From Roseateles subflavus (GTDB taxonomy: Bacteria > Pseudomonadota > Gammaproteobacteria > Burkholderiales > Burkholderiaceae_C), in NCBI RefSeq assembly GCF_030285365.1, contig NZ_JASVDS010000001.1:868001-932000 (forward strand): a stretch of DNA of 64,000 nucleotides, given 5' to 3'. Position 1 is the first letter of the stretch. The number at the start of each line of letters is the position of its first letter. This document shows, piece by piece, positions 19,911 to 29,692 of the stretch. The position numbers and the translations under genes are program-made. The notes under the pieces were generated by a model, which saw only the letters and a program-made list of their open reading frames with translations, did not search any database and was not told where the DNA came from.

Positions 19911-20789
19911 TCAGTGCGGGGCCTGCTGCTTGCGGCGCAGCTGCGCTTCCACGAGGGCCTGCACGCGCGGCGATGCGCTCATCGGAGGCTCCGAACCGAG
20001 CAAGCCCTGCAGCATCTGCCCGAAGCCCTGCTGGCGCTGCGGGTCCTTCGCGGCGGTCTGCCGCCAGGCTTCGCGGTAGAGGGCGGCGTCCTCCTCACCC
20101 AGGCCCCAGCGTGCGGGCGTCGCGGCCAAGGACATCAGGGCCAGCGCGTCGCCGGCCTCGGCATCGCGCTTCAGGGCCTCCACGATCACCGCGGGCACCG
20201 GCTCCTGCAGCGTCAGGTCGGCGGCATAGCTGGCGGCCGCGCCCAGGGCGCCGTTCTGCGCCGCCTTCAGGAGCAAGGGGCGCTTCAGCGCGCTGACGGC
20301 GGGGGTCACTGTCTGGCAGCGGCGCTGCTCCGTCTGCACCCAGTCGATGGTCTTGAGCCAGCCTGCCGCGCGTCGGGGGTCCTGGTCGGCGTCGCGGGCG
20401 GCGAACACGCCCTTCACGTGGCGATCGATGTCCCGGCAGCGCGAGATGTCCTGCGCGGCCTGGAACGCGTCGGTGGCGCTGCCTTGGTCCAGCGCGTGCT
20501 GGATCCGCGGGGCATAGCCCTCGGCGCCGATCTCGGGCGTCGAGGAGGCCGCTGGCGGTGCCATCGGTGTCGCGTCGCGGCGCTCGACCTGCGGGACAGG
20601 GGCAGGGGCTGGGACGGCAGGCGGCTTCGCGGGGGCTTCTGGCGCCTGAGGCATGGGCGCGATCGGGGCCGGTGTGCGGTCGAGAAGGCGCGGACCGGCG
20701 ATGCCGACGAGCAGCACCAGGCCCGCGATGCCCAGGACGCCGGTCAGGCGTCGCGAATGTCGGACAAGGGCGTGTCGAACGCGTTCCAT
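19911..20789 (-). CDS. Membrane-anchored hypothetical protein, first of a local family
   Basis: About 292 residues. A short basic N-terminus precedes one TM segment (~residues 17-35; GVLGIAGLVLLVGIAG), a Pro/Ala-rich linker (~36-85), then an all-helical periplasmic domain (~90-290) with Sel1/TPR-like spacing (DAFQAAQDISRC, RRCQTV, LLLKAAQNGALGAAASYA, DAEAGDALALMSLAA). It resembles the gene at 23829-24821 in layout (N-terminal anchor, linker, helical domain with the AAQxxxxRC pattern). A lux-box-like palindrome and a -10/-35 pair lie upstream. An ATG at 20843 with GGAGAG 11 bases upstream is an alternative start. The function is unknown. Confidence 0.75.
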   Translation of the reverse strand: MERVRHALVRHSRRLTGVLGIAGLVLLVGIAGPRLLDRTPAPIAPMPQAPEAPAKPPAVPAPAPVPQVERRDATPMAPPAASSTPEIGAEGYAPRIQHALDQGSATDAFQAAQDISRCRDIDRHVKGVFAARDADQDPRRAAGWLKTIDWVQTEQRRCQTVTPAVSALKRPLLLKAAQNGALGAAASYAADLTLQEPVPAVIVEALKRDAEAGDALALMSLAATPARWGLGEEDAALYREAWRQTAAKDPQRQQGFGQMLQGLLGSEPPMSASPRVQALVEAQLRRKQQAPH

Positions 20790-20886
20790 GAGCCGGCCTG
20801 GGTGGTGGACATTGCAGGGACCGACAGGGCCGAGCGCAGCCATGTCGCGGTGATCTCTCCATGGCGCTGGATCACGGAGGCCGCGG

Positions 20887-20916
20887 ATTCTAGGAGGGTG
20901 CTTCGCCTGCGTTCAG
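20887..20916 (-). promoter_or_regulatory. Predicted promoter of the gene at 20789
   Basis: On the minus strand, CTGAAC (20916-20911) and TAGAAT (20892-20887) form a -35/-10 pair with an 18-bp spacer. Transcription would start near 20880, about 90 bp before the chosen start codon. Confidence 0.5.
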
Positions 20917-20924
20917 CCGGTTGG

Positions 20925-20942
20925 CCTGGCACTTCTGACAGG
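20925..20942 (-). promoter_or_regulatory. Lux-box-like palindrome, copy 1
   Basis: Minus strand CCTGTCAGAAGTGCCAGG fits the LuxR-family box CTGNC-N6-GNCAG. Its promoter-proximal end is exactly 32 bp from the -10 hexamer TAGAAT. The same element with the same 32-bp spacing recurs at 27675-27692, and the flanking bases GCGCAC are also shared. Confidence 0.6.
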
Positions 20943-21005
20943 TCTTGTGCGCTGTGCGGCGCCGGCCGGGCCGCCCGGCCGGATGGCAGCCCGCCCCAGG
21001 CCCGC

Positions 21006-22721
21006 TCAGTCCAGCGTCACCTCGGTCCGCACCACGCCCGCGCGCTCCGTGCGGGCCGACAGCGAGAGCCGCGTGCCATGCGGCGCGCGGACGATCCATT
21101 CCGCGACGGCGCGGTCGCCGGTGATCTCGTCGGTCGGCAGGAAGCTCAGCTGCGTCGCCTGCGGGGCGTGGCCGGCCAGGTGCGGGCCTTCCATGCGCGA
21201 CTTGCCGGTGACGAGGCTGCCGCTGCCGTCGGCCGGCAGCTCGATCTCGAACATCACGCCGCGCACCACCTCGCGCTCCTTGGCGCGGGCGGTCACGGCG
21301 GCGCTCAGGTAGCCCGTGTTGGCGACGGCCAGGCGCACGCGCCAGGTGTCGGCGCCCAGGGCACGTACCTCGGCTCGCAACAGTTCCAGCCGCGGCAGCG
21401 ACAGGCCGATCTGCGTGAGCCACGCCGGGAAGCGCGCGGCCTCGCGCTCGCGCAGCGCGGGCGGCGGGTTGCGCCAGTAGTTCATCTTGTCCCAGCCGCC
21501 GATCTCTACGGCGCCCAGCTGCGGGTGCTGGAAGGGCGTCCAGTCGACATGGGCCTGGCCGCCGCAGTGCTCGTCGCTCCACTGGAGCAGCTTGAGGTCA
21601 TCCTCCACCGGGTGCTCGCGGAACCAGTCGATCCACTTGTAGCCGCTGATACCGGCCTCCTGGTTCGGGTTCCACAGCTCCACCACCCAGAAGAGCGCGC
21701 CGAGGTGCTCGTAGAGCCATTCCTGCGTGCCGCTGATGCTGTCCTTGGGGTGGTACTTGAAGTCGTGCCAGATGCTCACGGCCGGATAGCCGGTGTGCTT
21801 CTCGCCGAGCGCCGAGAACTGCTTGATGAGCCAGAGGTCCTCGGGCGCCATGTCGTCGTCGCTGCAGCTGCCCATGGGGCGCAGGATCACGCCGCTGTAG
21901 GTGTGGAAGCTGATGGCCGCGCCGATGTTGGGGTGCTTCACGATGAAGTCCACCATCGCCCGCACCTCGGGCTCGCTGGCCGGGTAGGGGCCGGCGCCGC
22001 CCTGCTCGTGCTCCTGCCGCCAGCCGCCGGGGAAGTTGCGGTTGAGGTCCAGCCCTTCGACGTCGCCGTTGACCTTGATCTGCAGGCCGTCGTAGTGCTG
22101 GATGAAGCCCTCGGGCATGAGGCGGTAGTACTCGCCGCCGAACTCGCCGGGCTCGCGCGCCACCATCAGGCGCGGGTCGTCGGGGTGCTTCTTGTAGCCG
22201 CCGTGCGGGTCGGGCACGCGCATGGTCAGGATGCGGCCGTCGCCGTCGACGTCCTCCATCGTGAGGCCATCCACCGGGTCCTCGTCATGCGGGTAGCGGC
22301 GCGTGGAGGAGCGGATGTGGCGCGGCCGGTCCGCCAGCGCCAGCTCGGCACCGTCGGGGTTCAGGCGGGGCACGAGGTAGACCACGCGGCTGTCCAGCAG
22401 CGCGCTCACGCGCCGTCCCTCCTCGCTGTCCTGGCCGTGCTGGCTCAGCAGCTGATGCAGGTAGTAGACGCAGGTCGTCGAGGCCGTCAGCTCCGCGGCG
22501 TGGATGTTGCCGTCCAGCCAGAGCGCGGGCTTGTCGGTGTCGGGGCCCGTGGCCGCGTTCGTGACGGCCAGCAGCCAGATCTCGCGGCCCTCGTGGCTCT
22601 GCCCGATCGAGCGCATCGAGACGAGCTGCGGGCGCGCCGCGGCATAGGCCTGCAGCAGTTCGGTGAGGGGCTGGTAGCGGAGGAACTGACTGAAGTCCGG
22701 GATCGGGAGGGCGGCGGCCAT
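21006..22721 (-). CDS. M14-family zinc metallocarboxypeptidase
   Basis: A protein of about 571 residues without an evident signal peptide. The peptidase_M14 zinc ligands are His74 and Glu77 in GNIHAAEL, and a third His in AAISFHTYSG. The catalytic Glu is probably in FWVVELWNP. The N-terminal SMRSIGQSHEGREIWLLAV strand is typical of M14. A C-terminal ~130-residue beta domain (from LELLRAEVRALGADTWRV) probably assists substrate recognition. It should release C-terminal amino acids or cleave modified peptides; the substrate is unknown. ATG 22721 is preferred because the fold starts there; ATG 22751 is also in frame. It sits between members of an unrelated paralogue group on the same strand. Confidence 0.9.
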   Translation of the reverse strand: MAAALPIPDFSQFLRYQPLTELLQAYAAARPQLVSMRSIGQSHEGREIWLLAVTNAATGPDTDKPALWLDGNIHAAELTASTTCVYYLHQLLSQHGQDSEEGRRVSALLDSRVVYLVPRLNPDGAELALADRPRHIRSSTRRYPHDEDPVDGLTMEDVDGDGRILTMRVPDPHGGYKKHPDDPRLMVAREPGEFGGEYYRLMPEGFIQHYDGLQIKVNGDVEGLDLNRNFPGGWRQEHEQGGAGPYPASEPEVRAMVDFIVKHPNIGAAISFHTYSGVILRPMGSCSDDDMAPEDLWLIKQFSALGEKHTGYPAVSIWHDFKYHPKDSISGTQEWLYEHLGALFWVVELWNPNQEAGISGYKWIDWFREHPVEDDLKLLQWSDEHCGGQAHVDWTPFQHPQLGAVEIGGWDKMNYWRNPPPALREREAARFPAWLTQIGLSLPRLELLRAEVRALGADTWRVRLAVANTGYLSAAVTARAKEREVVRGVMFEIELPADGSGSLVTGKSRMEGPHLAGHAPQATQLSFLPTDEITGDRAVAEWIVRAPHGTRLSLSARTERAGVVRTEVTLD

Positions 22722-22835
22722 GGCATGCGTCTTGTGGAGGCAGGGCGTCATGCTACGGGGCCGCCGGGGCCCGAGGGGTGGGGGCGAACCCGGGCGAGCA
22801 CTCGGGAAGTTGGGGCGGTGGAGCGTCGCCGCCCG

Positions 22836-23783
22836 CTAGGGACGCGAGTCCCAGGGCGCGAGGAAGGGCTCCACCCACCCGGCCTGCATCGCCGCGAAAA
22901 GGCGGGGCGCCAGCGCGCGGGCCCGGGCCAGGGTCTCGGGCGAGGGGCGGGTGTCCGCGCCCAGCGCGTGCAGGGCGATCTCCTGCTCGGTGCAGTAACC
23001 GTCCTGGAGGCACTGGGCGGCCTGGTCCAGCGCGACCGCCAGCCGCCCCTCGGGGCGCGGGTCCATCCCCATGGCGAAGTGCACGGCCAGCGCAAAGGTC
23101 TCCGGCGAGGTGCCGCCCCAGGGCAGACCGTCGAAGAAGGCGATGGGCGTGCTTCTCGCCCCCGTCAGGATCGTCATGCCGGCGCCATGAAAGTCCTGTG
23201 CGCTCAGGTACATCTGCAGTTCCGCCGCGAAGCCGGACGGGCTGGCCTTGGGCACGAAGCGGATCTCGTGGCGGTTCATGACCTGTGGGTCGCGCACCAG
23301 GGCGCTGCACTGCCGCTGGACTGTTTCCAGCGCGTTCTGTCGCTGTTGGCTCACCTCAGGCGTTTCATCGGGCAACGGGCGCAGCGGGCCGGTCAGCGCG
23401 GTCAGCGCGGCCATCGTGTCCTCGGCAGGGCCGCTCAGCTCCCGGTAGAGCACGCCGTAGCCGGCCATGCAGAGGGTTCGCAGCCGCCGGGCGGTGGCCA
23501 GCGCCTGCGGGGTCTGCCGGGTGAGGCCGTCGAGGACGAGGGTGTAGGCGGTGGGCAGGCTGTGCCCGGAGGCGGCTGCGCTGGCGCGCGAGGGGGGGTC
23601 CTGCCGACGGGGTGCCGTCGAGGACTGCGGCCGATCGGCGGTCCGCGCCGGCGAAGCGGGAGGGGCCTTGTGTGACGCTTGCGCCACCGGCGGCACATCC
23701 GGCGCCCAGGCCCTCCAGCAGCCCAGGATCAGCAGCAGTGCCAGTAGCGCGGCGGTCGTGAGCAGGGGATGAAGACGTCGCAT
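22836..23783 (-). CDS. Membrane-anchored hypothetical protein, paralogue family A member 1
   Basis: A 315-residue protein with one N-terminal TM (~residues 7-24, with a Cys that could be a lipobox, LILGC) and a Pro/Ser/Ala-rich linker to ~75. The conserved domain (~80-315) is shared with the genes at 24818-25756 and 25909-26841: a C-x-x-x-YG region, LQ...QDFHGAG, a TPIAFFDGLPWGG block, a MDPRP block, a CLxxGxC pair and a C-terminal helix LAPRLFAAMQAGWVEPFL. No known fold or catalytic motif was recognised. The last ~110 bp are almost identical to the corresponding part of the gene at 24818. It follows the gene at 23829 after 45 bp, probably in one operon. The function is unknown. Confidence 0.75.
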   Translation of the reverse strand: MRRLHPLLTTAALLALLLILGCWRAWAPDVPPVAQASHKAPPASPARTADRPQSSTAPRRQDPPSRASAAASGHSLPTAYTLVLDGLTRQTPQALATARRLRTLCMAGYGVLYRELSGPAEDTMAALTALTGPLRPLPDETPEVSQQRQNALETVQRQCSALVRDPQVMNRHEIRFVPKASPSGFAAELQMYLSAQDFHGAGMTILTGARSTPIAFFDGLPWGGTSPETFALAVHFAMGMDPRPEGRLAVALDQAAQCLQDGYCTEQEIALHALGADTRPSPETLARARALAPRLFAAMQAGWVEPFLAPWDSRP

Positions 23784-23828
23784 GTCAGCAGGCTCCGAGG
23801 TGCCGACGGATGAAGCGCGCGGGCAGGC

Positions 23829-24821
23829 TCATTTCAGCTCACCCAGCAACTGCGCGACGGCTCGCTCAATCTGCGCCCAGCGGGTGCGGGAGACCCAGAA
23901 GAAGCTGGGACTGCCATTGGGATCCACCGGGCTTCGGTTGAAGACCTTCTTCTCGGGAAAGTCTCGCCAATCATCGACGCACAGGTCGAGTGCATGGCAA
24001 GCGTAGTCCAGCTGCGCCTCCTCCACGCAGGTGCCCAGGCGGCGACAGGACCAGATCGCGACGATCCTGGATACCGCGAACTGGTCCCGCAGATGGCTCA
24101 CGCCGGCGAGGTCGAGATGCTCGTCCAGACCCAGCCGGTCGGCGGGCTCGGGGGTCAGGGGCGGCAGGAGGCCGCGCGCCTCCAGGAAATCGGCGGTGAT
24201 GTAGCCCGGCAGCACCTGCGCAGCGAAGTCCGCGGAGCCCGTCGAACGCACATAGTCGACCAGTCCGGCCACGTCATTGCGCTGCTGGGCCTCGTAGGCC
24301 ATTCGTGGGGGCGAGTCAGGACGCCAGGTTTGGGCGACATAGGCGAGTTGCCCGCGATCGCCTCGCTGCCCGCAGAGTGCTTCGAGCTGGCGGATCGATT
24401 GCTTCATCTGCTCGGAGGCTGTCGGGGCGACGTGAGCCACCATGGCCTGTGTCACCCCTTGGTCGAGGCAGCGGCGCAGCTGCACCTGGGCGGCGAAGAA
24501 GTCCTCAGGCGCCCGCGTGAGGGCGGCACGGTGGATCAGCAGCGATGGCGGCACATCCCGAAGGCGCCTCATGGTCTCGCTCCACCGGGCCCAGGAGGCC
24601 GAGGTGCCCACTGGACCTGGCGAGGCGGCGGAGGCTGCCGGCAGCGCGGCCCTCCATGGGACCGGCGAGAGGGTGGGGGCTGCCGTCGCTGCAGCAGGCG
24701 TCGACGAACCCGCGGACGCCGGGGCCTGGGTCATCCACACGTGCAGCCCCAGGCCGACGCCGAGCAGCGCGAGGCCTGCCAGCAGGGCCCGTCGCCACCA
24801 TCGGATAGCTCGCGTTGTCAT
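23829..24821 (-). CDS. Membrane-anchored hypothetical protein (helical, same local group)
   Basis: A 330-residue protein. An N-terminal TM (~residues 12-31) is followed by an Ala/Ser/Pro linker and a helical periplasmic domain containing several Cys (RRCLDQ, EALCGQR, WSCRRLGTC, DYACHALDLC). The C-terminus reads SFFWVSRTRWAQIERAVAQLL. The ATG at 24821 overlaps the stop of the upstream gene by 4 bp (ATGA), indicating translational coupling. A decayed copy of its last ~25 codons lies at 25829-25905, so this gene type was once duplicated here. The order anchor-linker-helical domain is like the gene at 19911. The function is unknown. Confidence 0.75.
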   Translation of the reverse strand: MTTRAIRWWRRALLAGLALLGVGLGLHVWMTQAPASAGSSTPAAATAAPTLSPVPWRAALPAASAASPGPVGTSASWARWSETMRRLRDVPPSLLIHRAALTRAPEDFFAAQVQLRRCLDQGVTQAMVAHVAPTASEQMKQSIRQLEALCGQRGDRGQLAYVAQTWRPDSPPRMAYEAQQRNDVAGLVDYVRSTGSADFAAQVLPGYITADFLEARGLLPPLTPEPADRLGLDEHLDLAGVSHLRDQFAVSRIVAIWSCRRLGTCVEEAQLDYACHALDLCVDDWRDFPEKKVFNRSPVDPNGSPSFFWVSRTRWAQIERAVAQLLGELK

Positions 24822-25756
24822 GGCTTCGGCGCACTCGGGGGGAGGAAGGGATCCACACGCCCGGCCTGCATCGCCGCGAAGAGGCGGGGTGCCAGGGCGC
24901 GGGCCCGGGCCAGGGTCTCGGGCGAGGGGCGGGTGTCGTCGCCCAGCGCATGCAGGGTGACCTCGTCTGCCGTGCAGCGGCCGTGCCGGAGGCAATGGAT
25001 GGCGACGTCCAGCTGTGCCGCCATCCGGCCGACGGGCTGGGGGTCCATCCACGTCGCGAGGTGGACGGCCAGCACGAACGCCTCCGGGCCGACGCCACCC
25101 CAGGGCGCGCCGTCGAAGTAGGCGATCGGCGTCGCTCGTCCGCTGATCAGCGTCGTGCCGATCTCCAGGTAGCTCCGGGCCGCAAGCTGCGCTTGCAGGT
25201 CCTTCACGAAATGGGGGGGCTGGGAGCGGAGAGGGAGTCGCACCTCGTCGCGGTTCATGGCATCCGCGTCCTGCATCACGGGATCGCAGTGCCGGTGCAG
25301 AAGCTCCAGCGCCTGCTGCCGCTGCGCGCTGATCTGCGGCGTCTCGCCGGGCAATGCAGGCAGTGGGCCCCGCACGCCTGCCGCGGTGCTGCGCCAGTCC
25401 CCGGGCGGCGTGAGCAGGAGGCCATAGCTTCCCACGCAAAGACTGCCCAGCATCCGGGCCTTGGCGAGCGCCTGGGGCGTCTGCTTCGCGACCCCGGCAA
25501 GGACGATCGCGTAGGCGGACGTTTCCGGGGGCGCATCGACGGGCGCCGGCAGTGGCAGCGGGGCAGAGGTGCCGGCCGCCCGTGCCGCGGCGGGTCGAGG
25601 ATTCGCCGCACGAGGCGGCGGTACCGTCACTTCGCCGCCTGCCGGCCAGGGTTCGATCCGAGGTGCCTGGCGCCACCAGAGCCCAAAGGCCAGCAGGCCC
25701 AGGAGCGCACCGAGGGCCGTGACTTTCAATGCAGAGGCTGGACGGAGGCGGGGCAT
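24818..25756 (-). CDS. Membrane-anchored hypothetical protein, paralogue family A member 2
   Basis: A 312-residue paralogue of the 22836-23783 product. The TM lies at ~residues 10-28 and the Pro/Ala linker runs to ~75. The family domain has LGSLCVGSYGLL, LHRHCDPVMQDADAMNRDE, GRATPIAYFDGAPWGG, TWMDPQP and CLRHGRC, and ends with LAPRLFAAMQAGRVDPFLPP. Paired cysteines suggest a periplasmic, disulfide-bonded domain. Its 3' end shares a long near-identical stretch with 22836-23783, indicating recent duplication or gene conversion. It is translationally coupled to the downstream gene (24821). The function is unknown. Confidence 0.75.
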   Translation of the reverse strand: MPRLRPASALKVTALGALLGLLAFGLWWRQAPRIEPWPAGGEVTVPPPRAANPRPAAARAAGTSAPLPLPAPVDAPPETSAYAIVLAGVAKQTPQALAKARMLGSLCVGSYGLLLTPPGDWRSTAAGVRGPLPALPGETPQISAQRQQALELLHRHCDPVMQDADAMNRDEVRLPLRSQPPHFVKDLQAQLAARSYLEIGTTLISGRATPIAYFDGAPWGGVGPEAFVLAVHLATWMDPQPVGRMAAQLDVAIHCLRHGRCTADEVTLHALGDDTRPSPETLARARALAPRLFAAMQAGRVDPFLPPSAPKP

Positions 25757-25828
25757 CAGCGGAGGGATCGGCGGCGTGGGTGGCAGGGTGTTCTCGTCCC
25801 TGCACCCTGGATCGCTTCATTCTGGGTT

Positions 25829-25905
25829 GCCAGCGACTGGTCGACGGCTCGCCCGATCTGCGTTCATCGGGTACGGGAGACCCAGCAGAAGCCGGGGCTG
25901 CCGCT
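25829..25905 (-). pseudogene. Remnant of the 3' end of a 23829-type gene
   Basis: About 75 bp match 23842-23915 at roughly 80% identity by eye. The minus-strand frame reads WVSRTR, stop, TQIGRAVDQSL against WVSRTRWAQIERAVAQLL in the intact gene; the Trp codon TGG has become TGA (25864-25866). The 5' part of the gene is gone. This shows an ancestral repeat of the gene pair in this locus. Confidence 0.65.
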
Positions 25906-25908
25906 GAG

Positions 25909-26841
25909 TCAGGGGGCAGGCGCAGCAGGGGAAAGGAACGCTTCCACACGCCCCTCCTTCATGGCCGAAAAGATGCGAGGGGCCAGGGCGTGAGCCTGTG
26001 CACGGATGGCTGGTGTATTGGGGTCTCGGAACAGCGGCATGGCCTCCAGGTCAAAGTCGCACATGCCCGATTCCAGGCAATTGCCTGCCATGCTCAGTTG
26101 AATCGAGGTCTGAGTACTGGGCCTGGGATCCAGCGCCATCGCGTAGTAGAGAGCACGCGCATAGCCCTCCGGGCTTGCGCCTCCCCACGGGAGCCCTTCG
26201 AAGTAGGCCACCGCCGACTTGCGGCCCATGAGCACCTGGAAAACCGCGCCGTGGAAATCCTGGGCCTGGAGCTGGATGCGCAAGGCTTCCTTGAATTCCA
26301 GGTGCCAAGCCGCGTCGAGTTCGCTGACCGCAGGGTGGTTCAGCGCTTGCTCATCATGAGCCACCGAACTGCAGTGCGCGAGTATCAGTTCACGGGCACG
26401 CTGGCGTTGCTCATGCTGGACGCCTGCTTCCTCTGGAAGCCGCGGCAAGGCGGTGCGACTGTCCAAGGCCGTCCGAAGGTCGATCTCACTTTGATGCTTC
26501 CGGTGGGCGTCAAACAGCGCTACCACGGCACCTCTACATGCTCTGACGAGCCCTCGCGCTTGGGCCCGGACGACCGGATTGCGGTCCGCCTGTGATTGGA
26601 TGATGAGGGCATACGTCGAGAGCGGAGCGCTGGGAGCCTCGTGAGGCATCACAGCGCGACTGGCGCTGAGCCCGCTGGACAGGCGCGACGGCACGGAGGC
26701 GAGGGCCGCCGGAGACGGCTCTTTCGCTTCTGGGCTTGGGGTGGCGCCTTCGGGTGCAGCCCGCAGCCAGACCACCCCGAGCGCCAGCAACGCCATGAAA
26801 AGCGATGCCAGGCAGACTTGCATTGAACGACGAGCAAACAT
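25909..26841 (-). CDS. Membrane-anchored hypothetical protein, paralogue family A member 3
   Basis: About 310 residues; the most diverged member of family A and visibly lower in GC than its neighbours. An N-terminal anchor (~residues 8-24; CLASLFMALLALGVVWL) and linker precede the shared domain: RACRGAVVALF, HCSSVAHDEQALNHP, LQAQDFHGAVFQVLMGRKSAVAYFEGLPWGG, YAMALDPRP, the CLESGMC pair and LAPRIFSAMKEGRVEAFLSP. ATG 26841 gives the N-terminus most like the paralogues; ATG 26859 and GTG 26886 are in frame. It starts 35 bp after the stop of the gene at 26877, so it is probably co-transcribed with it. The function is unknown. Confidence 0.72.
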   Translation of the reverse strand: MFARRSMQVCLASLFMALLALGVVWLRAAPEGATPSPEAKEPSPAALASVPSRLSSGLSASRAVMPHEAPSAPLSTYALIIQSQADRNPVVRAQARGLVRACRGAVVALFDAHRKHQSEIDLRTALDSRTALPRLPEEAGVQHEQRQRARELILAHCSSVAHDEQALNHPAVSELDAAWHLEFKEALRIQLQAQDFHGAVFQVLMGRKSAVAYFEGLPWGGASPEGYARALYYAMALDPRPSTQTSIQLSMAGNCLESGMCDFDLEAMPLFRDPNTPAIRAQAHALAPRIFSAMKEGRVEAFLSPAAPAP

Positions 26842-26876
26842 GTGGAGGTGTGGAGGCATAGGGCACAGGGGCTGCG

Positions 26877-27579
26877 TCAACGGCACTTGCTACTGGCATC
26901 TCCCACGGGTACGGAGCCCACAAACGACACATTCCCGATGCCATATGCGTAGGTGATCAGGGTGACTTTGTATCGGACGACAACGCCATTGGCTTGGCGA
27001 GTATCGAACTGGTCACCGACAACTGTCTGGATGCCACTGTTCAAGAAGAATGACTTGGCGATGCCTGCTACCGCAGCTTCGCTGTCCAGGCTGCTGTAGG
27101 GTGGCACTAGGTTCCGACCCAGCGGAACGCACTGCTCCAAGTGCTTTGGGTTCCGAATCAGGCCCCAAAGAGCGGTCTTCACCGACCCGCTCGAGCTCTC
27201 ATAGATGGTCTTAAGGTCCGCCATGTACTCGCGGCAGGCAGAGCCAATGCAGACGGCGTTCTGCGATGCAGAGCGGCCAAACACCTCGACCCGCTCCAGT
27301 TCCACGACGGTGTCGAGCACCAACTCCCAGCCCCCCATGCTGTTGTAGTAGTCACTGGGTTCCCCGTTGCAGGGCAGGTCTGTACTGGTACAGATGGGGT
27401 TGTATCGCAAGGCTGTCCTGCCGCCTGTCGGCCGGCTCGACTTGTCGTTGGCAGCAGGCTTGAAGAATCGCTGCGTTGTATATGGCAAATCGGGGAAGAC
27501 GCTCGCGGGCTGCACGTCAGCGGCGTACGTGCTAGCGCTCTGGAGGCTGAGGATTAAGGCAAGGCAAGGCAATCTTCAT
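26877..27579 (-). CDS. Secreted hypothetical protein, natural ATG displaced by a pentanucleotide tract
   Basis: A ~230-residue exported protein, low in GC for this window, with several Cys pairs (NPICTSTDLPCNG, CIGSACRE) and no recognised fold. In the present sequence the long frame begins at a TTG (27572). An ATG at 27579 (and 27588) lies just upstream in another frame, separated by three tandem copies of AAGGC (27556-27570). With four copies, ATG 27579 would read straight into the frame and give a normal signal peptide (MKIALPCLALILSLQ). As drawn, the ATG frame hits a stop after about 15 codons. It is either phase-variable, frameshifted, or expressed weakly from TTG. The predicted promoter with a lux-box-like site is upstream. 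The function is unknown. Confidence 0.6.
27556..27570. repeat. Pentanucleotide repeat (AAGGC)x3
   Basis: Three perfect copies of AAGGC (TGCCT-type on the coding strand) lie within the first codons of the secreted-protein gene. A change of one unit moves the ATG at 27579 into or out of frame. Confidence 0.7.
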
Positions 27580-27636
27580 GGCGATCATGGTCTGTCGATG
27601 AGACCCCGCAGCCCGCCGGCCGTGGGGAGGGTCGCC

Positions 27637-27642
27637 ATCCTA
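27637..27642 (-). promoter_or_regulatory. Predicted -10 box TAGGAT of the gene at 27579
   Basis: Minus-strand TAGGAT lies 32 bp downstream of the palindrome at 27675-27692, mirroring the promoter at 20887. Transcription would start near 27630, about 40-50 bp before the candidate ATGs. Confidence 0.45.
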
Positions 27643-27674
27643 ATGATCAAAAGGGATGTCCGATTCCCAGGCCC

Positions 27675-27692
27675 CCTGTCATCTCTGACAGG
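27675..27692 (-). promoter_or_regulatory. Lux-box-like palindrome, copy 2
   Basis: Minus strand CCTGTCAGAGATGACAGG is a perfect 7+7 palindrome with a 4-base centre and fits CTGNC-N6-GNCAG. The copy at 20925-20942 shares ACCTGTCAGA and the preceding GCGCAC, and has the same 32-bp distance to its -10 box. Confidence 0.6.
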
Positions 27693-27737
27693 TTTCGTGC
27701 GCACTGCGATCCACCCGTGCCGCGCCCGCCCTCGCCC

Positions 27738-28499
27738 TCACTGCCCCTTGAACAAGCCCTGGAACTGCCGTGACACCGGCAGCTTCTCGTCCCGCCCCTT
27801 GAGCGTGAGCTGCATGGTGTTCTCGTCCAGGCGCACGGCGCTGGCGATGCAGCGGCTGTTGACGAGCACGGAGCGGTGGACCTGCCAGAAGAGCTCGGCG
27901 TCGAGCGAGGCGAGCAGCTCCTTGAGCGGCGTGCGGATCAGGGCCTCGCCGCCGTCGTAGACGACGCGGGTGTAGCGGTTGTCGCTCTCGAAATAGATCA
28001 CGTCCTGCGGGTCGATCATCTTCACCTCGCGGCCGAGCGAGGCCTGGATGAGGCGCGGCTTGGGCGGGGTGGCGGCCAGGGGCAGCAGCTGCTTGAGCAA
28101 GGCCTGGAGGTCCGGCGCGGGCTGCTGCTGGCGGGCCTTGAGGCGCTCGATGGCCTGGACGAGGCGGGCGTCCTCGACGGGCTTCATGACGTAGTCGACC
28201 GCGCCGGCATCGAAGGCGGCGAGGGCATGGTCACCGTAGGCCGTCACGAAGACGACGTGCGGCGGGCGGGCGGTGGCGCCCATGCGGCGCGCGACCTCGA
28301 TGCCGGTGAGGCCGGGCATGTTGATGTCGAGGAAGCAGACCTGCGGCTCGTGCGCGAGGAAGTCGTCCCAGGCATCGACGCCATGGCGGCTGGCGGCCAC
28401 GATGTCGAGCTCGGGCCAGAGGCGCTGCAGGGCGGCGCGCAGCTGCTCGCGCGGGCCTTCCTCGTCGTCGGCGATGAGGGTGCGGATGGTCGTGTTCAT
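27738..28499 (-). CDS. LytTR-family response regulator
   Basis: A 253-residue response regulator of the LytR/AlgR type. The receiver (~1-125) has IADDEE, the phosphoacceptor in CFLDINMPGLTG, VTAYGDHAL and the Lys in YVMKPVED. The C-terminal LytTR DNA-binding domain (~150-253) carries MIDPQDVIYFESDNRYTRV, LKELLASLD and FWQVHRSVLVN. AGGAGAG lies about 6 bases upstream of ATG 28499. It is the last gene of a three-gene operon with two LytS-type kinases (30843 to 28529), all on the minus strand. Targets are unknown. Confidence 0.95.
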   Translation of the reverse strand: MNTTIRTLIADDEEGPREQLRAALQRLWPELDIVAASRHGVDAWDDFLAHEPQVCFLDINMPGLTGIEVARRMGATARPPHVVFVTAYGDHALAAFDAGAVDYVMKPVEDARLVQAIERLKARQQQPAPDLQALLKQLLPLAATPPKPRLIQASLGREVKMIDPQDVIYFESDNRYTRVVYDGGEALIRTPLKELLASLDAELFWQVHRSVLVNSRCIASAVRLDENTMQLTLKGRDEKLPVSRQFQGLFKGQ

Positions 28500-28528
28500 G
28501 GGGCCTCTCTCCTGGCGTTCGTCATTGT

Positions 28529-29692
28529 TCAGGCCGGCTGGATGCGCACTTCGGCGGCGCATCCGCCCGGCTCCAAGGGGCGCAGCTGCAGGCTCGCGCG
28601 CTCGCCGAAGGCCTGGCGCAGGCGCAGCAGCGTGTTGCGCAGGCCAAGGCCGCCCTGGCGCGTGGCGCCGGGTGTGGGCTGGTCGAAGTCAAGACCTGGC
28701 ACCGGGCCGTCGCCGTCGTCCAGCACCTGCAGGCACAGGCCGCCCTGTGCGTCCTGGCGGGCCCGGATGCAGATCTCGCCGCCATCGATCCGGGGCTGCA
28801 CGCCATGCTCGACGGCGTTCTCCACCAGCGTCAGGAGCACGCCCGGCGGCAGCAGGGCCTGGGCGGCATCGGGCGCGATGTCCAGGCGGAAGCGCAGGCG
28901 CTCGCCGAGGCGGGCCTGCATCACCTCCAGGTAGCGCCGCGCGGCCTCGGCTTCCTCGGCGACGCTGAGCAGGTCGCGCTCGAAGAGCGGCAGCGTGGCG
29001 CGCAGATAGCCCGTGAGCGAGCCCAGCAGCGGGGCCGCGCGGTCGTCCTTGTGCTGCACCCAGTGCTGCAGCGCCGCGAGCGAGTTGAAGAGGAAGTGCG
29101 GCTGGATCTGCGCGGTGGCCAGGCGGCGGGCGAGCTCCAGGGCCTCGGCCTGCCGGTCCTGCTCGCGCAGCCATTGATCGCAGTATTCGTTGCGCCAGCA
29201 GGCCATGATCCACAGGGCCAGGGCGCCCAGCATCATGCCCAGCATCAGCGTGGTGAGCATGAACCGGGCCGGCTCCCTGGCGGTGCCGGCATGCAGCTGC
29301 CAGACGTGCATGCCCTCGGCCGAGGCGCCCCACACGGCGGCGTAGAGGCCGAACAGGAGGTACAGGCGCGTCATCGTCGGGCGCCGCCAGAGGCTGCGCA
29401 GCATCAGCAGCTGCAGGATGCCGATGGCCTGGCTGACCAGGAACACGACCAGCAGCTCCGCCGCGCTCGTGACGCTGAAGAACTGCCGCATCGCGATCAC
29501 GCAGAAGGCGCCCGACGCGAGGATGTTCAGCCAGACGGCCGCCGTGATGCTCGCGGACATGGGCGGCAGGGCATCCAGCCGCGTCCACTGGGCGGGCGTG
29601 AAGCGGTGCCGCGGGCCGAGCAAGAGCGCGACGCGCCAGTCCACCTCGCGCCAGAACTGGCGCAGGCGCGCCCCAAGCCCGCGCAGGCTCAT
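28529..29692 (-). CDS. LytS-type sensor histidine kinase (second of two)
   Basis: A 387-residue kinase. Four or so TM helices occupy ~residues 40-175. The His_kinase domain has the phosphoacceptor in TAQIQPHFLFNSLAAL, and the ATPase part has VLLTLVENAVEHGVQP and a G box LQVLDDGDGP and GGLGLRNTLLRLR. The ATG at 29692 overlaps the stop of the upstream kinase gene by 4 bp (ATGA). The regulator follows 29 bp downstream. It probably phosphorylates the LytTR regulator; whether as homodimer or heterodimer with the adjacent kinase is not known. Confidence 0.92.
   Translation of the reverse strand: MSLRGLGARLRQFWREVDWRVALLLGPRHRFTPAQWTRLDALPPMSASITAAVWLNILASGAFCVIAMRQFFSVTSAAELLVVFLVSQAIGILQLLMLRSLWRRPTMTRLYLLFGLYAAVWGASAEGMHVWQLHAGTAREPARFMLTTLMLGMMLGALALWIMACWRNEYCDQWLREQDRQAEALELARRLATAQIQPHFLFNSLAALQHWVQHKDDRAAPLLGSLTGYLRATLPLFERDLLSVAEEAEAARRYLEVMQARLGERLRFRLDIAPDAAQALLPPGVLLTLVENAVEHGVQPRIDGGEICIRARQDAQGGLCLQVLDDGDGPVPGLDFDQPTPGATRQGGLGLRNTLLRLRQAFGERASLQLRPLEPGGCAAEVRIQPA

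Follow-up and report, generated by a model that had tools for sequence, protein, structure and literature searches.

A probable LuxR-family operator at two predicted promoters of Roseateles subflavus, with a LuxR solo as candidate activator

Operators of the LuxR-TraR type, such as the lux box of V. fischeri (CCTGTAGGATCGTACAGG), classically have their centre near -42.5, about 21-22 bp ahead of the -10 element, and double-glycine peptides with C39-peptidase ATP-binding cassette (ABC) exporters are known from microcins, bacteriocins, and peptide pheromones. Here, we analysed two palindromes of lux box type, termed box 1 and box 2, in a stretch of 64,000 nucleotides of the Roseateles subflavus genome (the window; G000:C1:868001-932000; genome size 5.05 Mb), where both lie at the same distance from a putative -10 hexamer and ahead of genes for predicted exported or membrane-anchored proteins. 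The closest published relatives of this system are JqsA (PMC3566124) and PipR (PMC4981722). In the report on JqsA, jqsA is accompanied by jqsS and jqsR, and the strings 'LuxR', 'promoter', and 'palindrom' have no occurrences in the main text of that paper (PMC3566124). PipR is presented as a LuxR homolog unresponsive to N-acyl homoserine lactones (AHLs) and responsive to a tripeptide (PMC4981722), and LuxR solos of the OryR/PipR group are given as having no partner synthase (PMC10134790). Among the matches listed in the open-licence literature on LuxR boxes, solos, peptides, Roseateles, and Pelomonas, nothing concerned the system in the window; for promoters of cqsA-type genes, one paper was listed, on Vibrio.

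The original prediction had placed LuxR-family boxes at the two ends of a gene block, each at the same distance from a -10 box. Both palindromes and both TAGRAT hexamers are present on the minus strand, 32 bp apart in each case, and the shared GCGCAC flank stands 10 to 5 bp ahead of both boxes:

20925..20942, minus strand: box 1, CCTGTCAGAAGTGCCAGG, 13 of the 14 palindrome bases (one mismatch), 63 bp past the stop codon of the M14 peptidase gene
20887..20892, minus strand: TAGAAT, putative -10 hexamer read from the sequence only, 32 bp past box 1
20943..20952, minus strand: gcgcacaaga flank before box 1, identical at 8/10 bases to the box 2 flank and at 7/10 to that of a sister species
27675..27692, minus strand: box 2, CCTGTCAGAGATGACAGG, a perfect 7+7 palindrome, 45 bp past the stop codon of a LytTR-type response-regulator gene
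27637..27642, minus strand: TAGGAT, putative -10 hexamer read likewise, 32 bp past box 2
27693..27702, minus strand: gcgcacgaaa flank before box 2, used for the flank comparison

Like the lux box and the LuxR-TraR operators, the boxes are 18-bp CCTGT-N8-ACAGG palindromes, with the outer dyad of that type (about 18-20 bp with CTG...CAG ends); unlike them, they have the core TCA-N4-TGA and no adjoining luxI. Beyond box and flank, similarity between the two sites is negligible, with 5/32 identical bases in the spacers and 10/32 in the 32 nt past the hexamer.

A genome-wide scan for CTGNC-N6-GNCAG followed after 28-38 bp by TAGRAT returned exactly two matches, box 1 and box 2, and none in the reversed sequence that served as control. 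The gapped pattern is thus unique to the two sites, whereas the pentamer pattern by itself occurs at four places in the window and is unremarkable. The window contains TAGRAT at a density of 5.5e-5 per base and strand, and the chance of finding it within the 11-position range of one box is therefore p ~6e-4, a post hoc estimate, because hexamer and range had been picked in the original prediction. The fuller palindrome CCTGTCA-N4-TGACAGG, with at most two mismatches, occurs at 23 places in the genome against three in the control. Only one of these is exact and one matches at 13/14, the next best reaching 12/14, and a repeat element was rejected on these numbers and on the dissimilar flanks. 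In the M14-peptidase loci of relatives, which served as background for box scans (79 loci, 1.12 Mb), zero sites had at least 12/14 fixed palindrome bases, compared with 13 and 14 for the window boxes.

We extended the palindrome search to 399 genomes of the family, again with reversed sequence as control and with totals summed by hand. The exact palindrome CCTGTCA-N4-TGACAGG was found at 77 sites in 39 of the 399 genomes, compared with three in the control. Inspection covered 74 of the 77 loci (L087-L160), that is, all but two unlisted places and the site in our own genome. In 22 of the 74, the palindrome lies just ahead of a gene for an alpha-hydroxyketone autoinducer synthase; one representative was scanned and assigned to NCBIfam NF005526 (560 bits against a cut-off of 428), and the 21 other palindrome-linked synthases have 60-79% identity to this query. 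Genes for a response regulator, a histidine kinase, and a protein with a LuxR-type helix-turn-helix (HTH) are visible in 21 of the 22 synthase loci, the remaining one (L141) ending at a contig edge, and in two further loci (L150 and L153) the palindrome stands by such regulator genes with no synthase in view. LuxR-type HTH matches occur in 26/74 palindrome loci versus 0/80 M14 control loci, although the 26 are not independent, because most represent one orthologous locus. The LuxR type of the synthase locus was itself observed in 23 of the 74 loci. Other LuxR genes are also close to the palindrome: an AHL-type luxR frame begins 94 bp past it in L123, where it is followed after 22 bp by TACAGT; a luxR-luxI pair adjoins it in L157; and a luxR lies about 640 bp from it in L088. 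Within our own genome, one of the 23 near-matches stands 55 bp ahead of the ATG of a LuxR-type gene termed solo38, with CACAAT at 22 bp, so that, with the 22 synthase loci and the 26 HTH loci, the motif is found at luxR or quorum-sensing promoters.

Collectively, the enrichment in the family and the linkage to LuxR-HTH and quorum-sensing genes support the name LuxR-family box, and the palindrome is likely a LuxR-family operator both in the family and in the window. This bears out one part of the original prediction, and the two window units likely belong to one regulon, whereas quorum control by AHLs is conjectural, as the window palindrome differs from the box of the genome's own luxI1 and the favoured regulator has an altered AHL pocket. 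With the CqsA/LqsA/JqsA systems the window boxes have the palindrome in common, which in relatives of our organism stands before the synthase gene, and 20 of these 22 loci have TTCAAT at a distance of 29-30 bp; by contrast, the best match to the synthase in the R. subflavus genome, at 27% identity, is not an ortholog, for which reason an alpha-hydroxyketone regulon was rejected here, and the synthase-locus LuxR is matched in it by the HTH part only.

The distance to the hexamer is also recurrent in the family. Among the 22 synthase promoters, TTCAAT follows the palindrome after 30 bp in 18, 29 bp in two, and 42 bp in one, and is absent from one. Around the palindromes of the other 52 loci (104 sides), TANNNT has its two maxima, of 7 and 6 occurrences, at 22 and 30 bp, followed by 24 bp (4) and 27, 29, and 55 bp (3 each), against a mean of 0.84 per spacing; some of these pairs come from sister or related species. 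On the 46 sides of the near-matches in our genome, TANNNT occurs at 21 bp (2), 22 bp (1), 24 bp (1), 27 bp (1), 32 bp (2, the window boxes), and 35 bp (2). The 32 bp of the window boxes is close to the 30-bp class and not identical with it. Assuming a start 6-7 nt past the hexamer, the box centre would lie at about -53. This differs by one turn of the helix from the classical -42.5, a position which neither window box would occupy; the 22-bp spacing occurs at other sites.

The genes around the boxes are the following:

19911..20789, minus strand: box-1 gene, 292 aa, with a hydrophobic segment at the N-terminus and a linker rich in Pro and Ala, assigned to no family of Pfam or NCBIfam
21006..22751, minus strand: M14 zinc carboxypeptidase, between both units
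22836..23783, minus strand: p1, paralog of p3 and p4
23829..24821, minus strand: p2, similar layout, 68-72% identity to genes behind the M14 gene in the sister species G028 and G154
24818..25756, minus strand: p3, paralog of p1 (53%) and p4 (36%)
25909..26886, minus strand: p4, 325 aa, N-terminal hydrophobic helix and Pro-rich linker, 10-bp overlap with the end of s
26877..27572, minus strand: s, 231 aa, secretion-signal-like N-terminus, TTG start
27738..28562, minus strand: LytTR-type response regulator, upstream of box 2, named from its sequence, kept in both sister species

In both sister species the M14 gene directly follows the LytTR-type gene, and the box-2 block is therefore extra in our genome. 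G028 carries CCTGTTAGAAGTGACAGG 42 bp past the M14 stop codon, in the position of box 1, followed after 32 bp by TAGCGT, an s-like gene, and a p2-like gene. The expectation that close relatives keep the box thus holds for G028, whereas G154, which retains the p2-like gene, has none. Pairwise, box 1, box 2, and the G028 box are identical at 15-16 of 18 bases and in 7-8 of the ten preceding bases, while their spacers, with 5-8 of 32 bases identical, are at roughly chance level. Box and distance were kept while the spacer was erased, which is the mark expected of selection on a promoter, and for the equal spacing, shared descent together with selection is a better explanation than two separate gains. 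In another genus (G356), one of two exact palindromes lies upstream of an s homolog, which is followed by a p-type gene; s relatives also precede a p-type gene in G233 and G257, with none seen in G021.

What is observed are the sites and their excess over controls, the association with LuxR genes in relatives, and the sister-species copy; for binding, activation, start sites, export, and the identity of the regulator, we infer the following. A dimer of a LuxR-family (GerE-HTH) protein would bind CCTGTCA-N4-TGACAGG, centred some 53 bp ahead of the presumed start, and would bring RNA polymerase to promoters that have no good -35 element. Both promoters would descend from one ancestor, the spacer having drifted while box, flank, and the 32-bp distance remained under selection. 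The output of box 2 would be s and then p4-p1, accessory proteins predicted to be exported or membrane-anchored, and that of box 1 just one membrane-anchored protein. The likeliest activator would be the LuxR solo termed solo36 (C1:496.95k), probably answering to a non-AHL ligand. We put the probability of this interpretation as a whole, namely boxes that are operators of a LuxR-family activator driving genes for exported or membrane proteins, with solo36 as the likeliest activator, at roughly 0.62.

Several observations weigh against it. The hexamers are present as the original prediction had it, but a consensus scan of 20700-21100 and 27500-27800 yielded no sigma-70 pair (-35 plus -10), and they are therefore only putative -10 elements. 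Most of the 23 near-matches in our genome have no convincing target, and many are probably chance occurrences, because, of the 21 that lie elsewhere in the genome, 14, including the candidates L018, L021, and L027, were flagged as in-frame by a crude gene caller. In favour of the interpretation, a matrix built from 11 LuxR-associated boxes, the window boxes left out, ranked box 2 first (18.7) and box 1 second (12.4) within the window, and of 1.12 million background positions none reached the score of box 2 and 13 that of box 1; this test is partly circular and supportive only, because the training boxes were picked by consensus likeness and conserved position. In G028, the first ATG is merely 14 nt past TAGCGT, for which reason TAGCGT may not be a -10 there, and the s-like frame is interrupted. 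G154 has no box (best 10/14) and no s, though the same LuxR solo is kept. The palindrome in G356 is 268 bp from the ATG of the s homolog, and at the inspected loci around s no box was found in three of the six s-bearing genomes (G233, G257, and G021). Further possible targets in our genome are a thermolysin-type protease gene and a BTAD regulator gene; the former lies at G000:C18:157436-159490 (L021:1437-3491), behind a 12/14 box with TAGGCT at 21 bp.

The original prediction had found no LuxR or LuxI gene in the window. This holds for AHL-type genes, but the genome has six PF03472 LuxR and two LuxI proteins, all encoded outside the window, and thus both components of an AHL regulon. Within the window, at about 62.9-63.7 kb (L168:994-1794), a response regulator with a LuxR-type HTH appears FixJ-like by eye and is not an AHL-type LuxR. 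The window-type box is not shared by the luxI promoters: luxI1 has CTAACAGTTCTGTTAG (by eye), a difference from the lux box systems, and luxI2 has no clear box. LuxR1 is an unlikely regulator of the window boxes, as its luxI1 promoter box differs. The interval between luxI1 and luxR1 contains a gene for 133 aa (G000:C1 ~693.6-694.0 kb; L039:2367-2768), which might, as a guess from its position, encode an RsaM-type regulator.

At the positions that we take to form the AHL pocket (W57, Y61, D70, P71, W85, and G113 in TraR numbering), LuxR1, LuxR2, and solo34 keep all six residues. By contrast, solo36, solo37, solo38, and closer relatives are changed at W57 and Y61, the G356 protein also at D70, while the L088 protein keeps Y61. 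The residues of solo36 are F, A, D, P, W, and G, unlike those of an AHL receptor; the F at W57 is clear, and the change at Y61 is alignment-dependent, with a Tyr one residue further. In solo37 and solo38, a Trp lies near a gap and the pocket changes are alignment-dependent; their recognition helices are unusual, and we would guess that the two are non-DNA-binding modulators. They are neighbours at G000:C1:826000-834000 (L027). Relatives of the solo36 clade occur in G028, G154, G356, and G257, with the L088 LuxR more distant. The only PF03472 LuxR of G356 belongs to this clade; G257 has two such LuxR, and G233 and G021 have none. Box-like sequences accompany the gene: upstream of it, GCTGTAAACCTTGTCAGG in G356 and G257 (11/14) and GCTGTAAACCCTAGC in our own genus (at most 9/14); just past its stop codon, AGTGTCAGAGTTGACAGT in G356 and TCTGTAAGAGTTGACAGT in G257 (11/14 each), and GGTGTAATGTGTGACAGT in our genome and GATGTAATGTGTGACAGT in G028 and G154 (10/14). 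The comparison with LuxR solos foreseen in the original prediction thus brings out solo36, the box-less G154 notwithstanding, as the best candidate for the regulator of the window boxes, which it may perhaps be at somewhat less than even odds.

Seventy bp past the box downstream of solo36 begins a 66-codon gene whose product has a GG-ended leader and four SPKGTW units (precursor gene at G000:C1 ~497.77 kb; L284:2772, L036:2280). A repeat-peptide gene lies directly downstream in 5/5 solo36 orthologs examined, with four DPSPKGTW units in G028 and G154, two TPRGGW in G356, and two APKNTW in G257; no double-glycine repeat-peptide gene was seen in L088. Double-glycine precursor genes typically yield exported peptides, and the solo36 peptide could be a signal, a toxin, or another product. 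Its GG leader places it with the double-glycine class, as do the HlyD and C39-peptidase ABC exporter genes that follow beside the solo in G356 and G257; unlike that class, it has short Trp-ended repeats (SPKGTW, APKNTW, TPRGGW) and a LuxR-type regulator, and visual inspection of 13 kb around our own solo36 showed no exporter genes. NCBIfam has no family for the SPKGTW peptide, the open-licence literature yielded no mention of SPKGTW-type repeat strings, and a simple screen of the exact palindromes of relatives gave no convincing double-glycine peptide gene. Solo36 resembles the OryR/PipR solos as a LuxR protein without partner synthase and differs from them in having a peptide precursor gene of its own nearby. 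Neither a proline iminopeptidase nor a peptide importer was apparent to the eye within the 13 kb beside solo36, where the family search covered only some of the neighbours. That solo36, through its altered pocket, senses Trp-ended SPKGTW-type peptides and activates the peptide gene together with exported-protein modules would be a speculative and rather improbable extension.

The boxes could instead serve the AHL system LuxR2/LuxI2 (C12:1.074 Mb), a reading that shares the LuxR-family operator with the preferred interpretation and whose odds overlap with it. LuxR2 retains the full AHL pocket, its recognition helix, SEHTVNFHLKNAMRKF, is near that of the synthase-linked LuxR, SERTVNYHLANAMAKL, and the canonical AHL-type LuxR genes adjoining the palindrome in L123 and L157 keep LuxR2 in play, a further point against solo36 as activator. 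However, the best match at the luxR2-luxI2 promoter is 10/14 and falls within the final part of the preceding frame, and G356 has palindromes and the s-p pair, yet its single PF03472 LuxR is unrelated to LuxR2; we consider this reading unlikely. More improbable is another dimeric regulator of the FNR/CRP, TetR, GntR, or MarR type preferring TGTCA-N4-TGACA: many regulator families read palindromes of such length, but the boxes match neither the CRP consensus (TGTGA-N6-TCACA) nor that of FNR (TTGAT-N4-ATCAA), and the excess of LuxR-HTH genes at palindrome loci over controls, though mostly from one orthologous locus, speaks for a LuxR-type protein.

Two readings deny the boxes a present role as operators. 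They might be remnants of a duplicated promoter, functionless today, in accessory units: s has homologs in 1/150 family genomes and by profile in 5/399 (own counted), besides the interrupted G028 copy recognised by eye, and the box-2 block is absent from this place in both sister species. Conservation of 15-16/18 in the boxes against 5-8/32 in the spacers, with the same spacing in three copies, is nevertheless what selection would leave, making this account very unlikely. Least probable is that the palindromes are hairpins which serve the upstream genes as terminators or RNA elements. Their 7-bp stem, 4-nt loop, and position 45-63 bp past a stop codon (42 bp past the M14 stop in G028) would suit such a role; by contrast, a terminator scan of 20700-21100 and 27500-27800 found no terminator-like site and no T-run, so that the terminator reading was rejected, and in the synthase loci the palindrome lies upstream of genes, with hardly any variation in its distance to a -10-like hexamer.

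As to the genes that these operators would control, the original prediction let the block begin at 27579. The ATG there stops after 15 codons, but a 231-aa frame, s, opens at TTG 27572. At 27557-27579, ATG 27579 is out of frame with s across a short GCCTT tandem tract, and the offset is possibly a matter of a TTG start, phase variation, decay, or sequencing error. The proteins p1, p3, and p4 have a mutual identity of 36-53%. A profile of three p proteins (G356, G233, and G257) matched p3, p4, and p1 weakly, with 17.4, 13.8, and 12.0 bits, and the G028 gene with 9.3 bits, E-values being computed for ten sequences; p2 gave no match, leaving its kinship with p1, p3, and p4 unsupported, and assignment of the box-1 gene to the p family is likewise unsupported (hhalign probability 0.2, 4.6 bits with the p profile). 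Relatives of the box-1 protein at E<=0.001 occur in 11/150 family genomes (own counted), several of them weak or partial. Pfam scans of six proteins (p2 without its first 34 residues) and NCBIfam scans of s, p4, p1, and the box-1 protein returned no family, and the structure models of s and p, with mean pLDDT of 37 and 46, were too poor and were left unused for fold search. The M14 peptidase has 93% identity to a protein of Pelomonas sp. BJYL3, and further matches at 75-79% come from Pelomonas, Methylibium, Roseateles, Paucibacter, and Rhizobacter, which places the organism in the Roseateles/Pelomonas group.

In summary, our analysis defines a probable LuxR-type operator across the family, tied to alpha-hydroxyketone synthase genes and to LuxR solos, and names a candidate regulator together with target genes. 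The two window promoters, with their set box, spacing, and candidate activator, would be ready reporters, and the SPKGTW-type peptide offers a possible ligand for one of the LuxR solos, most of which have no known signal. If solo36 does sense this peptide, a receptor of the LuxR family would answer to a peptide encoded by the organism itself, and thus represent a new signalling class in Gram-negative bacteria.

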